Below, one piece after another: positions 6,029-63,746 of a stretch of DNA of 64,000 nt. The notes beneath the pieces were generated by a model. The model saw only the letters and a program-made list of their open reading frames with translations. It did not search any database and was not told the origin of the DNA. The translations under genes and the position numbers were made by a program. The stretch is from Candidatus Methanoperedens nitratireducens (lineage in GTDB: Archaea > Halobacteriota > Methanosarcinia > Methanosarcinales > Methanoperedenaceae). The first letter of the stretch is position 1. Each line of letters begins with the position of its first letter. Location of the stretch: the NCBI RefSeq assembly GCF_000685155.1, contig NZ_JMIY01000001.1, positions 603,458 through 667,457 of the forward strand, given 5' to 3'.

Positions 6029-7366
6029 ATGAAGAAGACAAAAGAACCCAACACAGAAATCCCACCTTATGAACCAGACATTATCGAAAAAGATCTCTGC
6101 ACCCTCTTCTCACCAGAATGGTTAAACCAAGCTGCAAGAGAAACTGGACTAATAAAAAGAGAGAGAAAAGTAACTGCCGTAGAAATGTTTTGGGTTCTTG
6201 TCAATAGTTACGGTGTCCATCTTGCCCGAAATCTTGCGAACATCAAACGGAATTATGAAAAATCGTCAAATAAAAAACTCAGCGATAGCAGCTGGTATGA
6301 GAGATTTACACCCGAACTTGTTGCATTCCTGAAACTATGTGTCACTCATGCCATTGAACAGCTTGCTCTGGAGCAAACCAAAGTTCTTAACCAAAAGCTC
6401 TCCAAATTTCAGGATGTATTGATACAGGATAGTACAATAATCAGGTTGCATAAGTCTCTTGCCAAGAAATGGCCAGCAGCACGATCAAGAACAGTAGCAG
6501 CAGGCGTTAAAGTAAGTATATTAGTAAGTGCCGTGGCAAATAGTCCAAAAAGTATCAGTATTCATGCTGAAAGTACAAATGAATTGAAAACTCTGAGAAT
6601 AGGTCCCTGGATAAAAGATAGAATTCTTCTTATCGATCTTGGTTTTTATAAACACCAGATTTTTGCAAGGATCGAACAGAATGGCGGTTACTTTGTATCC
6701 AGGTTGAAGGGAAATGCTGATCCTCTCATTGTAGATTTGCATAATACATGTCGGGGCAACAGTATTGATGTGAAGGGAAAACGCATCAGTGAAATTCTGC
6801 CAAAATTAAAGAGAAGGATACTTGATGTTGATGTTGAGATCTCTTTCAGAAGACAGAATTTTAATGGCAAAAGTAAGACCAGACTGGATACTGAAATATT
6901 TCGATTGGTAGCTGTTTTTAACGAAGATGAGACTAAGTACCATGTTTATCTCACCAATATTTCGAAAGATGTTTTAAGTCCGGAAAATGTTGCGAAACTC
7001 TATGGTGCAAGATGGGATATTGAACTGATTTTTAAAGAACTAAAAAGCAGATACGCTCTTGATGTTGTAAATACTAAGAATACGCAGATCGTTGAAGCTT
7101 ATATCTGGATAGCGGTTCTTACTCTTTTTATAAGCAGAAGAATATATTCACTGATTCGAAAGTATAATCCAAAAGAAATGGTGGCTCGCTATACCCAATT
7201 GAGGTGGAGTACGATTTTCACTGAAAATGCTGATAGACAACTTACTCTAATACTTCGATATTGTGGGATTGAAAGAACTCTTGAGACTGTCATGAATGTC
7301 TATTCTAGCCAAGCACTTGATCCTCATGTCAATAGATATCGATTTAGGGATGACTGGTGGTCTTAA
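6029..7366 (+). CDS. IS4-family transposase
   Basis: A 445-residue transposase with the DDE_Tnp_1 core. The first Asp is in LIQDSTIIRL, the second in LLIDLGFYKH, and the Glu is in YGARWDIELIFKELK, which fits the IS4 signature Y-(2)-R-(3)-E-(6)-K. The N-terminal 100 residues are helical and probably bind the ends. The ATG follows a GGATTAGGAG sequence. The frame is intact and of full length, so the copy may be active. I could not pair convincing terminal inverted repeats. It separates the A+T-rich R-M block from normal chromosome genes. Confidence 0.9.
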   Translation: MKKTKEPNTEIPPYEPDIIEKDLCTLFSPEWLNQAARETGLIKRERKVTAVEMFWVLVNSYGVHLARNLANIKRNYEKSSNKKLSDSSWYERFTPELVAFLKLCVTHAIEQLALEQTKVLNQKLSKFQDVLIQDSTIIRLHKSLAKKWPAARSRTVAAGVKVSILVSAVANSPKSISIHAESTNELKTLRIGPWIKDRILLIDLGFYKHQIFARIEQNGGYFVSRLKGNADPLIVDLHNTCRGNSIDVKGKRISEILPKLKRRILDVDVEISFRRQNFNGKSKTRLDTEIFRLVAVFNEDETKYHVYLTNISKDVLSPENVAKLYGARWDIELIFKELKSRYALDVVNTKNTQIVEAYIWIAVLTLFISRRIYSLIRKYNPKEMVARYTQLRWSTIFTENADRQLTLILRYCGIERTLETVMNVYSSQALDPHVNRYRFRDDWWS

Positions 7367-51520: not shown

Positions 51521-51575
51521 CGTAAAACTAAAAAAAGGGCGCAATAACAAATTATCGTTAAAGAAGATATACTTT

Positions 51576-51658
51576 GCGAGGGTATCCAAGCGGCCAAAGG
51601 AGTTGGACTTAAGATCCAATTGCGCAGGCATTCGTGGGTTCAAATCCCATCCCTCGCA
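51576..51658 (+). tRNA. tRNA-Leu (anticodon UAA)
   Basis: An 83-nt gene with a perfect acceptor stem (GCGAGGG and CCCTCGC, discriminator A). The anticodon stem-loop is TTGGA-CTTAAGA-TCCAA. It has a long class II variable arm and a T arm GTGGG-TTCAAAT-CCCAT. No CCA is encoded. Virus-like genes start directly downstream, so its 3' half is the likely attachment site of the element to the right. Confidence 0.95.
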
Positions 51659-51669
51659 TACCTTATCAC

Positions 51670-51791
51670 TCACGTTCCCCCTTACAAACGGCGGATAATA
51701 CCGTCATACCGTCATTACCGTCATTTCCACGAGCAGGAGACAATGACGGTATTGATGACGGTACTATAAATGAGAAGTATAGTATCGTCAT
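51670..51791 (+). pseudogene. Inverted copy of part of the primase-helicase gene
   Basis: 122 bp starting 12 bp after the tRNA match the reverse complement of about 60903-61023 with few mismatches. The reading frame is kept (SRSPLQTADNTVIPSLPSFP, then RAGDNDGIDDGT), and the copy includes six of the ATGACGGT-type repeats. It has no start and soon leaves the homologous frame. It looks like a leftover of a related element or of a recombination event at the attachment site. Confidence 0.8.
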
Positions 51792-53682: not shown

Positions 53683-53695
53683 ATTAAATGAAGTT
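53683..53695 (+). promoter_or_regulatory. Gene-unit box 1: ATTAAATGAAGTT
   Basis: Exact 13-nt box, 15 nt before the ATG of the next gene, followed by GGGTGATC, which pairs with the 3' end of archaeal 16S rRNA. Confidence 0.75.
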
Positions 53696-53710
53696 TTGAT
53701 GGGTGATCAT

Positions 53711-54223
53711 ATGGACGCGCAGATGACGGGCAAAGCTGATACTGGCCTCTCGAAGGTCATATCCTTTGAGAAACGGCAGGAGCTCAACAACATTCTGCAC
53801 TCAGAGGATCCTGATCACTATTCCCGCCTCTGGCTTGCAGGCTTCTTGAAGTTCTGCGGCTACAGCGTTGATGAGATCTGTGCCATAATCCATGCTGAAG
53901 CCAGCTGGTCGGATTACAACGAGAGGACAACCTGGTGCCAGGTTAACAGCGTCTTTCGTGAGTATAAGAGATCCAACAAACCGTGTACTGGTGATGGCCC
54001 TGTACCCGATAGAAAGGTATTCAGCCCGTTTGTAAAATGCAATTCCGACGATCCATGTCCCGATTCAGTGAACGGCTTTTGCTACATCGCTGCAGGCGAG
54101 TACAATATCCATTCGGTGGACGAGAGGATCCGCCGCGCGCTGGACTGTTCGATGAACAATCAAGCTGCAAGGTTCCAGCGCCAGGAACGGAGACTAAGAG
54201 CTTTACGGGACCTCTTCAGGTGA
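53711..54223 (+). CDS. Cys-containing protein, weakly primase-large-subunit-like
   Basis: A 170-residue protein. The region SRLWLAGFLKFCGYSVDEICAII, then DYNERTTWCQVNSVF and a cysteine cluster (KPC, VKCNSDDPCPDSVNGFCY) is reminiscent of the C-terminal Fe-S domain of archaeal/eukaryotic primase large subunits, though the match is weak. An RNA/DNA-binding zinc or Fe-S protein is the safer description. The ATG at 53711 is set by GGGTGATC; the longer open frame to 53633 would read through the box. The basic C-terminus (RFQRQERRLRALRDLFR) may bind nucleic acid. Confidence 0.6.
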   Translation: MDAQMTGKADTGLSKVISFEKRQELNNILHSEDPDHYSRLWLAGFLKFCGYSVDEICAIIHAEASWSDYNERTTWCQVNSVFREYKRSNKPCTGDGPVPDRKVFSPFVKCNSDDPCPDSVNGFCYIAAGEYNIHSVDERIRRALDCSMNNQAARFQRQERRLRALRDLFR

Positions 54224-54252
54224 GTACCTGAGGCCACACGGTGGGGAATGCA

Positions 54253-54265
54253 ATTAAATGAAGTT
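54253..54265 (+). promoter_or_regulatory. Gene-unit box 2: ATTAAATGAAGTT
   Basis: Exact box. The following ribosome-binding stretch is diverged (GGGTGAGTCAAAAGG). It heads a unit with a 28-codon frame (54269-54355) and then the 66-codon gene at 54367. Confidence 0.7.
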
Positions 54266-54268
54266 TCC

Positions 54269-54355
54269 ATGGGTGAGTCAAAAGGACTCCGAAGCGCAAG
54301 CAGTCGCAGGGGTACTATCCTGCGAGTGCCGAAGATGCGCTTACCGTCTGTTTAG
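54269..54355 (+). CDS. Possible 28-residue leader peptide
   Basis: The ATG three bases after box 2 opens MGESKGLRSASSRRGTILR and stops at 54355. The stop is followed at once by GGAG and the ATG of the next gene. Its position suggests a leader, but the coding evidence is slight. Confidence 0.2.
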   Translation: MGESKGLRSASSRRGTILRVPKMRLPSV

Positions 54356-54366
54356 GAGACGTAACC

Positions 54367-54567
54367 ATGGATATAGAATCGAATCGAATTAAGCCTTTCG
54401 CTCAATCGTCAGAGCGAGAACAGATACGAGAACATTTCATCAAGCGTGCACGCGAAGCGCCAATACCAGACCCATTCGATCCAGCATCGATGCTGAAGTG
54501 GGGAGAGTACGTTGACGAGATGCGCGAGCTCGAACAGATGCTGCGTAATGCAGGGGAGAAGTTATGA
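54367..54567 (+). CDS. Small acidic helical protein
   Basis: A 66-residue protein of two predicted helices (SEREQIREHFIKRARE and MLKWGEYVDEMRELEQMLRN). It has GGAG 11 bases before the ATG and its stop overlaps the next start (ATGA). No family is recognised. It is the first gene of a tightly coupled five-gene run up to 55918. Confidence 0.55.
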   Translation: MDIESNRIKPFAQSSEREQIREHFIKRAREAPIPDPFDPASMLKWGEYVDEMRELEQMLRNAGEKL

Positions 54568-54698
54568 AATACTTCTCCCGGATCATCTTGATAGTATTTG
54601 CTTGTGGCCATCGGAAGCGTGGCATAGACACCTATCAACAATTCGTGACAGATAATAAGGTGGACTGCCCGGCATGCAACTCTCGGGTGGTGATGTAG
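54564..54698 (+). CDS. 44-residue zinc-ribbon protein
   Basis: A very short gene that overlaps the previous stop by four bases and ends one base before the next ATG, so all three are translationally coupled. It contains ACGH (Cys14, His16) and CPAC (Cys35, Cys38), enough for one zinc ribbon. Too short for most gene callers; the coupling on both sides is the main support. Confidence 0.55.
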   Translation: MKYFSRIILIVFACGHRKRGIDTYQQFVTDNKVDCPACNSRVVM

Positions 54699-54956
54699 AT
54701 GATGCGAAAGGATCGCGTTTTCATGAACGTCTCGGATCCGGGAATGCTGGGCAGACTGTCACGGTCAGCAGATATCACCATCCTGAACCGCTTTGAGTTC
54801 TTCGAGGCAGTGAACAGCAAGAACAGGCACAGGTACAGAGTCAACGTCACGGAACGGGATATCACCTGCTCATGTCCTGATTCGAAGAAAGGCAACCACT
54901 GTAAACATGAAATCGCGGTCGCCAGGGATATGAGCTACTTTCTGGGAGGGGTCTAA
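54699..54956 (+). CDS. SWIM zinc-finger protein
   Basis: An 85-residue protein whose C-terminal part, ITCSCPDSKKGNHCKHEIAV, is a SWIM zinc finger (CxC...CxH). The N-terminal part may form beta strands (HRYRVNVTERD). SWIM fingers bind DNA or proteins and are frequent in archaeal mobile elements and in SWI2/SNF2 partners. It begins directly after the zinc-ribbon gene and ends at the start of the next. Confidence 0.8.
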   Translation: MMRKDRVFMNVSDPGMLGRLSRSADITILNRFEFFEAVNSKNRHRYRVNVTERDITCSCPDSKKGNHCKHEIAVARDMSYFLGGV

Positions 54957-55169
54957 ATGACCACTTCCCCTCTTGATGCTGTCTTTGATAAAGCCCAGCA
55001 TAAGCTATCCAGGGATGCATTCCATGACTGGCTGTGCAGAGCATACGGTGTGATGTCAGAAGCTCTGGCGAATCCTGGCGTATATTCAGAGCGCAACACA
55101 GTGCAGATCCTCAGGAACGCGATCACTGAGCTCTCTGTAGAGTACGCGAAGAAAGAAGAGGTGGAGTAA
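54957..55169 (+). CDS. Hypothetical 70-residue protein
   Basis: A helical protein (DAVFDKAQHKLSRDAFHDWL, AYGVMSEALANPGVY) with an acidic C-terminus. Start and stop are both joined to neighbours without gaps; the stop shares a base with the next ATG (TAATG). No family recognised. Confidence 0.55.
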   Translation: MTTSPLDAVFDKAQHKLSRDAFHDWLCRAYGVMSEALANPGVYSERNTVQILRNAITELSVEYAKKEEVE

Positions 55170-55918
55170 TGTCCGATCTGGCGCTGGGCGAAGATCTGCC
55201 TGTATTCGAGGTTCCTCTGTTCGATGACCAGCACGCTCCACTGGATCCACACCCGACCAGAGGGGCCCCATTAAGGCAGTGGTATCCTCGTCAACTCAAG
55301 GAAGTGACCATCCTTGCCAGGACTAAAAGCACCGGCCACATCAGAATCATCGAGGAGGTTCGATCTGCAGACGCGCAGTATTCACTGCTGATGCACTACT
55401 ACAAGGTCATTGGGATGGTCGAAGTGTCCAAAAGAAGGCCGCCGATGACCATTGAAGAGGAAGTAACAGCATATAACCTGTTTCAGAGCGGAGCATCGAT
55501 CCAGGAGGTAGCCGCAAGGCTCGATAAAAATATCTCCACGATCTGGAGGCTCGCACCAGGAGAGCCAACCCGCAAATATCATCACCTTCATAGATGCCAG
55601 ATAGAGGAAATTGATAGATTGTACGGGATGAAAACGCCCCCTAAAGAGATAGCGCGGGTGCTTAACCTGCCCTATAGGACGGTAACGTATCACCTCTATG
55701 AGAAGAAACGCCATCACTTACATACACATCAGAAGCAAGAGATTGACAGGCTGCACAGGATGAGAACGCCCCTTGAGAAGATCGCAAGAGTACTTAACCT
55801 GCCACGTAAGACGGTAGAGTGCTATCTCCTTGAAAGGAATGGTAAAGAGCTTGAAGAAGGGAGGGGAAAGCCCCCCCTCCTGCCGGGCGCCGGGATAGCG
55901 GGTGGGAAAACAAATTAA
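55169..55918 (+). CDS. Triple helix-turn-helix DNA-binding protein
   Basis: A 249-residue protein with three consecutive helix-turn-helix units. Unit 1 (94-128) has SGASIQEVAARLDKNISTIW, unit 2 (141-178) KTPPKEIARVLNLPYRTVTY and unit 3 (187-224) RTPLEKIARVLNLPRKTVEC. The second and third are close copies. The N-terminal 90 residues lack a known domain. Tandem HTH units would read a long or repeated site, so it is a candidate regulator of the six ATTAAATGAAGTT boxes in its own element (inference). Confidence 0.8.
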   Translation: MSDLALGEDLPVFEVPLFDDQHAPLDPHPTRGAPLRQWYPRQLKEVTILARTKSTGHIRIIEEVRSADAQYSLLMHYYKVIGMVEVSKRRPPMTIEEEVTAYNLFQSGASIQEVAARLDKNISTIWRLAPGEPTRKYHHLHRCQIEEIDRLYGMKTPPKEIARVLNLPYRTVTYHLYEKKRHHLHTHQKQEIDRLHRMRTPLEKIARVLNLPRKTVECYLLERNGKELEEGRGKPPLLPGAGIAGGKTN

Positions 55919-55926
55919 ATGAAGTT
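55914..55926 (+). promoter_or_regulatory. Gene-unit box 3: ATTAAATGAAGTT
   Basis: Exact box overlapping the last codons of the triple-HTH gene. The start codon it serves lies 44 nt downstream, farther than for the other copies. Confidence 0.7.
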
Positions 55927-55970
55927 ATCAGGTGTGTAGCTGTATGGCTACATCCAAAAAGGTGATTAAA

Positions 55971-56204
55971 ATGTGTGAAAAAAACAAAACAGATAAAGCA
56001 AGTGCAGAACAAGAGATCTGTGTAAGCATCAGGCTGCCGCGCAAGTATCATGTGTTCTTAAGGAACTATACCACCATGACGGGAGAAAGCGCAGAGGATA
56101 TTGCAGCGTCCGCTATGAAATCCTACCTGGAGATGTGTTCCTCCAACCTCGGTGTGATCTCAAGAGAAATCCCCTGGCGCCTGGAGAATCAAAAAACGGA
56201 ATAG
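55971..56204 (+). CDS. Ribbon-helix-helix-like protein
   Basis: A 77-residue protein. Residues 14-24 (QEICVSIRLPR) look like the DNA-binding strand of a ribbon-helix-helix repressor, followed by two helices (KYHVFLRNYTTMTG and SAEDIAASAMKSYLEMC). The ATG is fixed by GGTGATTAAA just before it; a start 13 codons earlier lacks a site. It is transcribed as a single-gene unit, closed by a T-tract at 56221. Confidence 0.65.
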   Translation: MCEKNKTDKASAEQEICVSIRLPRKYHVFLRNYTTMTGESAEDIAASAMKSYLEMCSSNLGVISREIPWRLENQKTE

Positions 56205-56220
56205 ATCTCATCCTCTTTGC

Positions 56221-56229
56221 TCTTTTTTT
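56221..56229 (+). terminator. T-tract after the RHH gene
   Basis: CTCTTTTTTTGCCACC lies 16 nt after the stop. The same layout (T-tract then TGCCACTGG or TGCTGCTGG) follows the next three genes. Confidence 0.55.
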
Positions 56230-56247
56230 GCCACCGGGTAGCGGGCG

Positions 56248-56260
56248 ATTAAATGAAGTT
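56248..56260 (+). promoter_or_regulatory. Gene-unit box 4: ATTAAATGAAGTT
   Basis: Exact box, 16 nt before the ATG. The spacer ends in TTGATCATT. Confidence 0.75.
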
Positions 56261-56276
56261 GCCGGGCTTGATCATT

Positions 56277-56525
56277 ATGAATAATCCAAAATCAATAGAA
56301 GAGTGTGTAGAAGAGATCGAGAAAACCCTTGCAGACGTGATTGAAGAGGCTGAGCGGAAGAACAAAGACCGTGAACACATGTTCTGTCCCCTCTCAAAGA
56401 TGATGTGCCGGGTGGATTGCGCCTGCTACACCAAAGCCACTGTTCATGGGATGCAGAGCCCAAAGCCGTACATCATGGGCGGATACTGCAGAGCTTATAT
56501 CCTGCAGGGTCCTGCAGGTCAGTAG
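56277..56525 (+). CDS. Small Cys-rich protein
   Basis: An 82-residue protein. The first half is an acidic helix (EECVEEIEKTLADVIEEAER). The second half has cysteines in FCPLSKMMCRVDCACY and GYCRAY that could hold a metal site. The ATG at 56277 is preferred. The ATG inside the box (56253) is also in frame here, but not in all units, so it is not used as the general start. Confidence 0.6.
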   Translation: MNNPKSIEECVEEIEKTLADVIEEAERKNKDREHMFCPLSKMMCRVDCACYTKATVHGMQSPKPYIMGGYCRAYILQGPAGQ

Positions 56526-56526
56526 T

Positions 56527-56539
56527 CTCTTTCTTTTTT
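56527..56539 (+). terminator. T-tract after the 82-residue gene
   Basis: CTCTTTCTTTTTTG begins a few bases after the stop, followed by CTGCTGG, as in the other units. Confidence 0.55.
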
Positions 56540-56554
56540 GCTGCTGGCTACTTG

Positions 56555-56567
56555 ATTAAATGAAGTT
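56555..56567 (+). promoter_or_regulatory. Gene-unit box 5: ATTAAATGAAGTT
   Basis: Exact box, 16 nt before the ATG. The spacer contains CAGGTGGGATCATT. Confidence 0.75.
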
Positions 56568-56583
56568 GCCAGGTGGGATCATT

Positions 56584-56745
56584 ATGGCTCCCATCACTAA
56601 ATATGCTAAAGATCGAAATGACCTGTATCTGAATTGTCAATATTGCAACCTGGTATTTAATCCACGGTGCTATCTCCCTGAACTGTGCCACAAGAATCTT
56701 GTCTGCTATCTCGGCCGCGCATATGATGAGTATTACCGGGGGTAG
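56584..56745 (+). CDS. Very small Cys-rich protein
   Basis: A 53-residue protein with five cysteines: CQYC, RCYLPELC and LVCYLG. The spacing could bind one zinc or an Fe-S cluster. It has its own box, ribosome-binding site and T-tract. No family recognised. Confidence 0.55.
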   Translation: MAPITKYAKDRNDLYLNCQYCNLVFNPRCYLPELCHKNLVCYLGRAYDEYYRG

Positions 56746-56750
56746 TACCT

Positions 56751-56759
56751 CTCTTTTTT
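56751..56759 (+). terminator. T-tract after the 53-residue gene
   Basis: CTCTCTTTTTTGCCACTG starts five bases past the stop codon. Confidence 0.55.
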
Positions 56760-56783
56760 GCCACTGATACATGCAGCAGGCTG

Positions 56784-56796
56784 ATTAAATGAAGTT
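56784..56796 (+). promoter_or_regulatory. Gene-unit box 6: ATTAAATGAAGTT
   Basis: Exact box, 17 nt before the ATG, followed by CAGGGGTGATCAATT with a strong GGTGATC ribosome-binding site. Confidence 0.75.
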
Positions 56797-56813
56797 GTCA
56801 GGGGTGATCAATT

Positions 56814-56963
56814 ATGAATAATCTCAATATCGTATCCAGGCTGCGTAAAGTATCGAATGATGAACGGGCCGAAGTGTCGCCGTATGCAATAGCTATCCTG
56901 GTTATTCTTATGACTATCCTCTTCCTTACCCCTGCTGCTATCATGTTTATTACGATGAAGTAG
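56814..56963 (+). CDS. 49-residue pilin-like membrane peptide
   Basis: A single-helix protein. The segment NDERAEVSPYAIAILVILMT resembles the N-terminus of archaeal type IV pilins (charged residues, then VSP, then a hydrophobic helix) processed by prepilin peptidase. Only three residues follow the helix, so there is no globular pilin head. It may be a membrane-embedded virion or conjugation component, or a mimic of the host pilin. The ATG is set by GGTGATC. It is the last plus-strand gene before the convergent operon. Confidence 0.6.
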   Translation: MNNLNIVSRLRKVSNDERAEVSPYAIAILVILMTILFLTPAAIMFITMK

Positions 56964-56967
56964 CTCC

Positions 56968-56974
56968 TTTTTTT
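56968..56974 (+). terminator. T-tract after the pilin-like gene
   Basis: CTCCTTTTTTTGCCACTGG, starting four bases past the stop, ends the run of single-gene units. Confidence 0.55.
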
Positions 56975-57131
56975 GCCACTGGTACAAGCTGATACGACCC
57001 ACGTTATCCTATCCCCATAAATCGCCTGGAAACTTTAGCAGAATTTTCTATGTAAAATTGAGTACCCGTCACCAAAATTTTTTTTAGATTTTTGGCTTAA
57101 GTTTCAGGAACAGTGTAAAAATCCAATGCCT

Positions 57132-60560: not shown

Positions 60561-63489
60561 TCACCGCCCCCTGTCACGATCTGTAATCGCGGCTTTGATT
60601 AGCAGCTCTGCTTCCTCGTGGGACATCGTAAGCTTATGTTCCCTCCACATGTCGCCTATGAAGTACCTGACTTCTTCTTCCATGGCGTTTGCGTTTATTG
60701 GTTGGTAGCCGTAATCTCGCAGGATGCGATTGCGAGCTAATTTCAGCTTATCGATCTGTGAGGGCTCCCCCTTAGATACTTTGGATAATATCGTCATTAC
60801 CGTCATACCGTCATGGTGTGTTGCAGGTTCTTGTTTTCTTGATGACGATACTAATGACGATACTATTTTTGGTGTCGTCACGTCTCTGGTCCCACCCTCA
60901 TGAATGACGATACTATTCTTTTCATTTTTGGTACCGTCATCAATACCGTCATTGTCTCCTGCTCGTGGAAATGACGGTAATGACGGTATGACGGTATTAT
61001 CCGCAGTTTGTAAGGGGGAACGTGAAAGCTGTATAGTTCTCTGTTGGGCATCTCGAATGGCCACAAATATTATGCCTTCTTCCAGCAGGTTTGTTTTTAT
61101 TTCGTTTAACCGCCTGGTCAGTGTGTTGGCCGCCTTCGGAAATCCCTGGGCCTTGGTATTCACTCGACATGCTTCACCCAGCAACTCAAGCTCGATTAGC
61201 AGCTCGGAGGGTGTACCCTGCCACTCTGTCCTGTCCCCCATGAACTTAAGAATCAGATCACCTATAATGCTGCCTTCCAGCGCCTCCCGATTCTGTGCCC
61301 GGATATTAGCATCATATGCATCCAGGAAAGCATCCATACCATATCCCAGCGCCTCGGCAATCGCACATCCCCACACAGCAAAGTCTGCCATTCGGGGATA
61401 CTCATCAAGCTCTATAGAAGGATACAGCGCCATGGCCCTTGACACTGCCGTGAATATCCCGCCCAGTATCTCTCCCTGTACTTTTTCAAGGGCGGCCCAG
61501 AATTTAGCTTCCGGTATTCGCTTGTTTCTTGGTATTCTCTCGAGCCCTATCAATACGCTCCTATCCAGCAGATCAGGTTTAGTCGCCACTACATTAATAC
61601 CGTTAAGCCCTATGCAGCGCCTGTACTTGTAGATAAAATCTTCATCATCGCTGTAGAGCTCACGCTTTGTTATGCCATCGCCAGTGATAGCTCTGCAGAG
61701 TATATCGCTTTGCCATGTCTGCAGGGACGTGATATTATCGTAGGGGGCATAGTAATGGTGCGCCAGCTGCTGTACAAACTCTTTCTTATCGTGGGGCAGG
61801 GGAGAGGAGAGATAAGGCGCTCGGATCCACAAGCCTCTTGATGAGGGCATTCACAGTGCTTTTGGCAGCGCCTTTCTCGCCGTAAAATACTAAGCATACG
61901 TGAGCGATATCCGGGATAAAGTAAGACACAAGAGCTACCAGGAATAGCAGCTTTTCCCCTTCATCTTTGATAGGGATAAACTCAAGTATCTTCTTCACCT
62001 CTGCGATAGGTGCGTTTTGAGTAGGACTACTGCTTTTCATGTGCGATAGCGTCATGAACAGGATAGGCACATCCTTCATAATCCCCCAGCCCTGCGCTGT
62101 TATCTTGACTGCTGTCCAGTCTGCCAGGTCATACCAGATGGCGCCATCGTGCCAGCAGCATCTCACGGATAGATTGTACTGCTTTCCGTCGTGCTCTGCT
62201 ATTGCCTTAATTACGCTCAATGCACTGTTGATAGCATCGCTCCCGGGCGCAGTGCCAGTCTCTCTATAATACCTCCCTGACAGCCAGCTTCCAAAGGTCT
62301 GCGACTTGAGGGACAGTATCTTATTGACACCATTGATCTTGATCCGCGCATACAGCTTCAGGACGTCGTCATGAAATAGCTCGACATCACTCGATTCGAC
62401 ATAGTGTATGAGTGCGCTAGCCTGCGAATCTCCATTGCCCTTGCTTCCACTAGCCTTCTGCTTCTCACGCGGTTCACTTCCTCTCTTTTCTCTGTTCGGC
62501 TCTAGCTTATCTCTCAATGCCCTCCAGTCATGCTTTGCGCATGAGTTGTGAAAACAATGAAAAACTAATGCCCCGGATTGCGTTTGTATGATACTTGCAT
62601 CCGGGTATCTATGACTCGCATCAAAAGGGCACTTATCCAAAACGTACATAGTGCCACTATTCCATGGCTTAGTGGAAGCGACTGTTATATCGTATTGCTT
62701 CATCCAGGCCTGGATGTCAAAGCCATTGGAATATCCCTTGTCTGGCTTGTGTTCTTCTTCCACAGGTATAACTGCTATCAGTTCACCGATCTGATCTACT
62801 GATATAGGGTTTATTTCTGCAGGTACCTCCAGTATCTTGCTCTCCCTGTGCGGCCGCTCGGCGGTGCTATCTCCCTTCTTGGCGACAGTCCCATAGAGCT
62901 TGACTATCCGCGATGCATTAAATACCGTCAAGTCAATCCCTACTTCCTTATCACCGAAAACAAGATCGAATGCCTCCAGACACTTCTTGACGGTTTGGGT
63001 GCTTTCTTCGTTGTTTGGTAGGTCTATATGGTATATCAGGCTTGCACCGTTCCCCGAATCACAAACGACCGGATCAGCCCATCCATGTTTTGCCATAATT
63101 TCCCGGATGTGATAGGCTTTTGCTATTGCCGCGTTGTGCTCTGCATCGGTTGAAGATATACCCGCAGGCCGTATGGGGTCTATATCCACTAACAAAAACG
63201 TCCTCTTGAGTATGTCCTTGTCAGATGTGGTCAATTTAGAGTTTTCGTCTAGACGGTTGCTGCATCTGGATAGTAACGCCGGGTTCACGGGGTTGAGAGT
63301 AACGTATATCCCTGGTACTTTGGTATCATATTTTATTACGCTCTGGACTGCTTTATCCAGGTTATTAAAGTATCCCGCTATTGTTGTCTCGTATTTTCCG
63401 TTCAGCTTCGCCTTGGGTATTCTAATCTCTAGCACGGGGCTGTATTTAAAAAAGAAAGAGAGTGTGTTAGCTATGTCATCTCGGCTCAT
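60561..63489 (-). CDS. Primase-helicase, interrupted by a +1 frameshift
   Basis: A single replication gene of about 980 codons in two frames. The first part (63489-61787) starts with an archaeo-eukaryotic primase domain: DID at 102-104, SGNGASLIYHID at 145-156 and NASRIVKLYG. A zinc-finger-like CPFDASH...HCFHNSC follows, then the start of an ATPase with Walker A GEKGAAKST. The frame then stops at SLLSPAPR. The continuation (LPHDKKEFVQQLAHHYYAPYDNI, then LLDRSVLIGLERI) lies one base forward. A gain of one C in the CCCC run at 61799-61802 explains it. The C-terminal part has a winged-helix-like region and a Ser/Thr-rich linker that holds the iterons. The ATG overlaps the upstream stop (ATGA). 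Confidence 0.8.
60785..61010. repeat. Iteron-like cluster ATGACGRTA within the primase-helicase gene
   Basis: About eleven copies of ATGACGGTA or ATGACGATA (or complement TACCGTCAT, TATCGTCAT) in 225 bp, some in direct tandem (ATGACGGTAATGACGGTA), others inverted. They fall in the codons of the low-complexity linker. Initiator-gene iterons are classic replication origins of plasmids and viruses, so this is a candidate origin. Confidence 0.7.
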
Positions 63490-63746
63490 TTTAAACCCCT
63501 TTTTGCTGCCTGGACTGCCCTTCTGCAGGCCTGGCACTCCGGCCACTCATCTGGCCGCCCCACGTCACTCACTGCGTACTCAGCCGACAGCGGTACTTCG
63601 CAACCTCCGCAAAGGCTATCACCTAAATATTCTTTTAAAGTCAGAATAAAGGCGCGCTCTAAAGGGCTAAAACCGGGGAGTAGTTTTTCATTTGTACCCG
63701 CGAGCGCCCTCGCTTTTTGGGCCTGGTCCGGGGTTAGGGTCAACAT
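63486..63746 (-). CDS. Small zinc-ribbon protein
   Basis: An 86-residue protein with a helical N-terminus (TPDQAQKARALAGTNEKLLP) and two cysteine pairs (LCGGC and ECQAC) that make a zinc ribbon. The first true ATG at 63746 has GGTGG upstream. Its stop overlaps the primase-helicase start as ATGA, so the two are coupled. Confidence 0.65.
   Translation of the reverse strand: MLTLTPDQAQKARALAGTNEKLLPGFSPLERAFILTLKEYLGDSLCGGCEVPLSAEYAVSDVGRPDEWPECQACRRAVQAAKRGLK

Follow-up and report, generated by a model that had tools for sequence, protein, structure and literature searches.

The 64,000-nucleotide stretch of Candidatus Methanoperedens nitratireducens studied here (contig NZ_JMIY01000001.1, positions 603,458 to 667,457, hereafter the window) contains an integrated element in which six gene units begin behind one and the same 13-nt box, ATTAAATGAAGTT. 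The box belongs to a real, element-specific start module that is absent from host genes, and judging from the sequence this module is probably a portable archaeal promoter-leader cassette. Comparison with relatives indicates that ATTAAATGAAGTT is the local variant of a longer module, TTTTAAATAAAATT followed by GGYGA and often by an RNA hairpin.

The six exact copies that an earlier note on this DNA had placed at 53683, 54253, 55914, 56248, 56555 and 56784 are real, all six on the + strand (span 53683–56796), and well beyond chance: for both strands together, a dinucleotide model gives an expectation of 0.007 per 64 kb and 0.35 per genome. A search of the whole 3.2 Mb genome found the 13-mer at these six sites only, and allowing up to 2 mismatches added nothing to the window but scattered 2-mismatch sites. 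Thirty congeneric genomes have 0–2 copies each, which is little above a reversed-pattern control, and these copies, inspected singly, lie in ordinary sequence without the start-codon context of the window. The note had held that boxes at random host positions would speak against its idea; neither the genome nor the 30 congeners did so. In four units the ATG follows the box end by 15–17 nt, as described before. In unit 3, for which 44 nt had been reported, an in-frame ATG at 55944, previously overlooked, lies 17 nt from the end of the box, so that the unit need not be an exception, and when this ATG is counted the ATG is 28–30 nt from the box start in five of the six units. The features are listed below; G, L and C numbers denote genomes, loci and contigs of the comparison set (e.g. 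G008:C206).

51575–51659, +, tRNA-Leu (TAA) gene, whose last 55 nt form the element's left attachment repeat
53683–53695, +, box 1, ATTAAATGAAGTT
53711–54223, +, unit 1 gene, 170 aa, weakly similar (below cut-off) to the archaeal primase large subunit
54253–54265, +, box 2
54276–54369, +, leader RNA of unit 2, structured and extending to the start codon, matched by model R2 with E 8e-22
54367–54567, +, first gene of unit 2, 66 aa, conserved in G002, G003, G007, G008, G009 and G013
54699–54956, +, SWIM zinc-finger protein in the unit 2 run
55169–55918, +, protein with three helix-turn-helix (HTH) matches, encoded last in the unit 2 run, with a stop codon that overlaps box 3
55914–55926, +, box 3
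55944–56204, +, unit 3 gene, with ATG 55944 located 30 nt from the box start and an alternative in-frame ATG at 55971
56223–56237, +, T-tract TTTTTTT with GCCACCGG, after unit 3
56248–56260, +, box 4
56277–56525, +, unit 4 gene, 82 aa, Cys-rich, with a partial relative elsewhere in the G002 element
56534–56547, +, T-tract TTTTTT with GCTGCTGG, after unit 4
56555–56567, +, box 5
56584–56745, +, unit 5 gene, 53 aa, Cys-rich
56754–56767, +, T-tract TTTTTT with GCCACTGA, after unit 5
56784–56796, +, box 6
56814–56963, +, unit 6 gene, 49 aa, with a hydrophobic stretch, membrane-spanning in appearance
56968–56982, +, T-tract TTTTTTT with GCCACTGG, after unit 6
57072–57095, strand not applicable, inverted repeat around a T8 run (CCAAAATTTTTTTTAGATTTTTGG) between converging gene blocks

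The relation to the longer module became visible through a partial homologue of the HTH protein, which pointed to contig G008:C206. Three units there have TTTTAAATAAAATT (in one case TTTTAATTAAAATT) instead of ATTAAATGAAGTT, followed by GGGYGAATTAT or a close variant. Intermediates between the window box and the common form are found in G002 (TTTAAATGAAGTC), G032 (TTTAAATRAAGTT) and G003 (ATTAAATGAAATTG), and the T-tract pattern TTTTTTGCCACYGG uncovered additional elements in the genus. The exact module pattern (TTAAATAAAATT, 5–9 nt, GYGAATTATC) occurs in 11 stretches among 84,980 genomes, all of them Ca. Methanoperedens, while the covariance model R1 gives 28 matches at E<=0.1, the weakest of them uncertain, in 10 of the 31 congeneric genomes; beyond the genus it reaches two other genera of the same order, with one strong and one weak match. 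All named module matches are from Ca. Methanoperedens, in line with the archaeal setting proposed earlier. The search of related genomes for the box with its spacing, which had been suggested as a check, showed the module recurring before unrelated genes and confined to those of elements. The gene types behind it include DUF488, SLOG, macro-domain, primase-like, HTH, small Cys-rich and hydrophobic proteins, none related to another, and gene content and order differ among elements with the module sequence being kept. Orthologues of the unit 1 gene have the same start module in G002, G013 and G017, and in G009 a small hydrophobic gene takes the final position, as in unit 6. Conservation starts at the box, and no further promoter upstream is common to the unrelated contexts. 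The core TTTTAAATA, seen in most relatives, is TTTAWATA-like and resembles a standard archaeal TATA box; the window variant ATTAAATG does so more weakly.

The units come in three forms. In the short ones the ATG is located 26–30 nt from TTAAAT in 14 of 15 cases and at 23 nt in the remaining one, and 4 of the 14 keep this distance with no Shine-Dalgarno (SD) match, which implies that it is not simply SD spacing. In the long units, the form of most relatives, the ATG is found at 53–57 nt, behind a hairpin and then an SD; the hairpin, GAATTATCGA-N4-TCGATAGTTC, begins at the G of GGYGA, 20–21 nt past TTAAAT, and varies in apical length. Across 16 long units 96% of the cells pair, changes on both sides occur in 7 cells, where shuffles give 2.0, and the covariation score is higher than in all 500 shuffles. 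This is not so for the count of doubly changed pairs; the double changes fall in the inner pairs, and the units of G032 contribute additional compensations. The hairpins were also considered as a DNA operator, which is disfavoured because arm spacing and loop length vary with the pairing kept. A reading of the ATG within the box as the start of an upstream open reading frame was rejected as well, as some of the frames close after 3–10 codons and others continue in frame, so that no conserved coding is seen.

The third form is represented by unit 2, where box 2 heads the coupled run 54367–55918, as had been claimed, and a 113-nt interval with a structured leader RNA precedes the run. The leader has an outer stem AGCGCA/TGCGCT (54293–54298 with 54336–54341), an inner hairpin and a third hairpin (54345–54361) that contains an AGGAG ribosome-binding site. 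Eight sequences of it give eight pairs with double changes as compared to 1.3 in shuffles, and model R2 has 17 matches in 9 of the 31 genomes (L123–L139), the majority of them preceded by this box at an unchanged distance; in 186 genomes of the order it has no match outside the genus. By this pattern of substitutions the leader is a covarying structured RNA and a candidate riboregulator, and the position of the SD inside a hairpin suggests translational control. No Rfam family corresponds to it; the element gives only the tRNA and one sub-threshold microRNA match.

The ends of the last four genes are also alike. Each is followed by a T-tract, as the earlier note had seen, of 6–7 T placed 4–18 nt past the stop codon, against a background in which a T6 run occurs within 40 nt at about 3% of positions. 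The tract is followed by GCCAC(C/T) in three cases and by GCTGCTGG in one. T-tracts with GCCACYGG mark the same element family, and T-tracts are present on several units of relatives. U-tracts are used in archaeal termination (PMC8716108), and a T run shortly 3' of the stop, as expected of such a terminator, is present in the last four units and not before boxes 1–3. A combined T-tract and box pattern was too strict and gave zero matches. At L111 ~7206–7262 (− strand), a box leads through a 6-bp hairpin to a T-tract and no gene is evident in the interval, a candidate for an empty unit or a tiny RNA gene. An inverted repeat around T8, like that at 57072–57095, has the same place in G008, G009, G023 and G030 (L023, L039, L067, L111), in several elements preceded by AAACTTTAG, and is possibly a two-way terminator between the converging blocks.

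Taken together we favour, with a probability of about 60%, that the box is the TATA-like core of a portable promoter/leader and that the small genes are expression cassettes of their own, often ending in a T-tract terminator. The module would then consist of the box, which reads ATTAAATGAAGTT in the window and TTTTAAATAAAATT in the majority of relatives, a gap of about 5 nt and GGYGA. Methanolobus psychrophilus belongs to the same order as Ca. Methanoperedens. Its B recognition element (BRE)/TATA signals lie ~19–22 nt from the transcription start site (TSS), and ~16% of its mRNAs are leaderless, with leaders <10 nt (PMC5378194); in T. kodakarensis the median TATA-TSS spacing is 23 bp (PMC4247193). 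Following the M. psychrophilus spacing, transcription would start at the G of GGYGA or just after, 20–28 nt from the box core, and the geometry of the sequence is compatible with such a start. Three outputs are then conceivable: a very short leader, leaderless or nearly so, with the ATG 26–30 nt from the box core, as in five units of the window; a leader with a hairpin close to or at its 5' end, then a ribosome-binding site and an ATG at 53–57 nt, as in most relatives; and, in window unit 2, a longer structured leader whose ribosome-binding site is enclosed in a hairpin. For the last units of the array, each transcript would terminate at its T-tract. Three window units begin 15–24 nt past a T-tract, which leaves little space for another promoter. 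The earlier suggestion that each small gene is its own transcription unit is therefore the best reading of the recurring module, the T-tracts and the conservation from the box onwards, and plausible.

Several observations weigh against this. If the outer pairs of the hairpin are indeed part of the RNA, transcription would start only ~19–20 nt past the TATA centre, on or under the lower edge of the normal archaeal TATA-TSS range; if the start were a few nt later, the transcript would hold only the inner pairs, which are those with double changes. GGTGATC in the window units is a good SD, which a leaderless mRNA does not need. Six identical 13-mers exceed the conservation that a TATA box calls for, a promoter cassette does not account for the GCCACYGG behind the T-tract, and boxes 1–3 are preceded by no T-tracts.

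One rival is an RNA-level module, in which the genes are co-transcribed and the A/U-rich box, hairpin and ribosome-binding site act in the mRNA, on translation start, processing or stability. A start of covarying hairpins, variable in apical length, 20–21 nt past TTAAAT is tight for a TATA promoter; SD matches of 5–7 nt at all window starts are, by a rough count, above those of typical host genes; and in unit 3, as in some relatives, the box overlaps the stop codon of the gene before it. Against it stand the TATA-like core of the relatives, the unrelated contexts with no other common sequence upstream, the three units so close behind T-tracts and the ATG spacing kept in the four short units with no SD, and we regard it as possible but doubtful. 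The nearest described design that we found is one for which a role of this kind has been proposed. The start-associated sequence (SAS) and extended SAS of Cluster K mycobacteriophages are a 13-bp asymmetric sequence just upstream of many small-gene starts, mostly in one orientation and absent from the host; about half of the SAS are accompanied by inverted repeats with variable spacers, and their function is not known (PMC3203893). A 13-bp repeat before many start codons and absent from host genes is what the box shares with them. The SAS consensus GGGATAGGAGCCC is not found in the box, whose sequence is unrelated and from another domain of life. Furthermore, SAS directly adjoins the start codon and has partial complementarity to 16S rRNA, whereas the box is TATA-like and upstream of the SD, the inverted repeat here is downstream of the box, and T-tracts and a covarying leader RNA accompany some of the units. 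As both sequence and arrangement differ, the box can be a functional analogue at most, and not a SAS member.

The earlier note also proposed that all units are under one switch read by the triple-HTH protein, that is, that the box is an operator and the units one regulon. The exact identity over 13 nt points to a specific reader, and the module precedes the HTH gene too, in G009, G013 and G017 as well as in the unit 2 run of the window; its relatives are found behind the module at L111, L140, L141 and L113 (G009, G013, G017, G008). However, no HTH homologue is present on box-bearing contigs of 9–16 kb (L039, L061, L065, L066, L067, L121), nor was one found with two query proteins in the module genomes G002, G010, G023 and G030, though many of these are fragmented metagenome-assembled genomes. 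Nearly the same box occurs in relatives whose HTH proteins share only 26% identity, and the box is not a clear dyad. With these absences the idea is not supported and we find it unlikely; from its distribution the HTH gene looks like a passenger of the module and possibly a regulator. A sequence search of PDB with the protein gave no match. It is also conceivable, although speculative and on balance improbable, that the elements have a dedicated expression system of their own, with a mobile module read by a specific factor (not simply TBP) and with 5' hairpins, swapped between elements along with interchangeable cassettes so that any captured gene is expressed immediately. A new regulatory leader RNA that conceals its ribosome-binding site would be part of such a system. 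A single-subunit RNA polymerase (PF00940), as in T7-like promoter systems, gave no match in the 31 genomes, and control genomes were equally silent; such a system was set aside only because nothing calls for it.

Box and T-tract/GCCACYGG could also be cassette boundaries, recombination sites for an integron-like exchange. Variable gene content and order around a constant module, TTGCCAC/TTGCCAG at both ends and the G009 box that leads to a T-tract without a recognisable gene in the interval fit this, but the fixed spacing from box to start and the conserved order of hairpin and SD fit expression instead, no dedicated recombinase was seen beside the arrays, and homologous recombination would suffice. 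We consider it very improbable. In integrons, as in the window, small unrelated genes are arrayed with a structured sequence repeated between them, but attC is located 3' of each gene and recombined by IntI, whereas the box is 5' of the gene at a fixed distance from the ATG; neither an integron integrase nor an attC core was observed, and the only integrase of the element is of the tyrosine type. Least probable, and disfavoured, is an ordinary host promoter that seems repeated because of recent duplication within the array. The genes are clustered and TTTAAATA-type TATA boxes are common in archaea, but the unit genes have no evident mutual similarity, and the module is missing from host genes and in relatives precedes many unrelated families. 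A portable promoter and leader, which we prefer, shares with the common archaeal arrangement of BRE/TATA and U-tract terminator the TATA-like core of the relatives, the spacing to the starts and the T-tracts at gene ends; it differs in being near-identical over 12–14 nt, with a conserved GGYGA and a hairpin that begins unusually near the TATA, and in its restriction to element genes. Phage morons are accessory genes that occur singly, each equipped with a promoter and a terminator. The small, unrelated accessory genes here resemble such autonomous units, but many of them share one start module in an array, and in an archaeal element.

The element that contains the boxes is bounded by the tRNA-Leu gene and a tyrosine integrase. 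The partner of the last 55 nt of the tRNA gene is located at ~65375–65429 in window numbering, past the window end, and is 85% identical; the integrase, the sole one found, adjoins this repeat at the far end. A + strand block (53.7–57 kb) converges with a − strand block (57.3–63.5 kb), in which a YozE-like protein and a weak match to a DnaB-like helicase were seen; the majority of genes have no family match. Orthologues of the − strand genes and of the unit 2 gene in G009:C88 and G003:C5 imply that the element belongs to a family. Searches of IMG/VR, INPHARED and PLSDB with one to three element proteins per collection found no relatives, and the module patterns had no credible match in the viral collection; the lone IMG/VR pattern match, on a contig resembling T4-type phages and without a position-matrix score, was dismissed as chance. 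Two overlapping open reading frames on the − strand in different frames, 61786–63546 and 60561–61850 (region 60561–63546), could represent a single helicase/primase gene for replication that a frameshift has interrupted. A 122-bp inverted duplication with CCGTCAT repeats, 96% identical, has one copy adjoining the tRNA-Leu gene (51670–51791, +) and the other within a reading frame of the replication region (60904–61025, −). In the relatives, GC-rich palindromes resembling repetitive extragenic palindromic sequences (e.g. CGCCGTCTGCGGACGGCG) are found upstream of several units (L023, L037, L039, L062), and at L024 ~4522–4187 (− strand) the unit 2 gene appears fused to part of the HTH gene, probably by deletion. 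SLOG and macro-domain genes stand together behind the module at L065, L066 and L112, a possible cargo of an NAD/ADP-ribose-related system.

In a limited literature search, at the level of titles and abstracts, we found no description of the module in Methanoperedens elements; Borgs have been described, and their sequences are outside the comparison. Archaeal mobile elements are rich in tiny unrelated genes, and a shared portable start module would, if true, be a concrete answer to how newly captured genes become expressed. The unit 2 leader adds a covarying RNA outside Rfam that appears to hide its ribosome-binding site. The module can also function as a search handle, as it finds cargo genes such as SLOG, macro-domain and DUF488 in the poorly known elements of Ca. 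Methanoperedens without the need for protein similarity.

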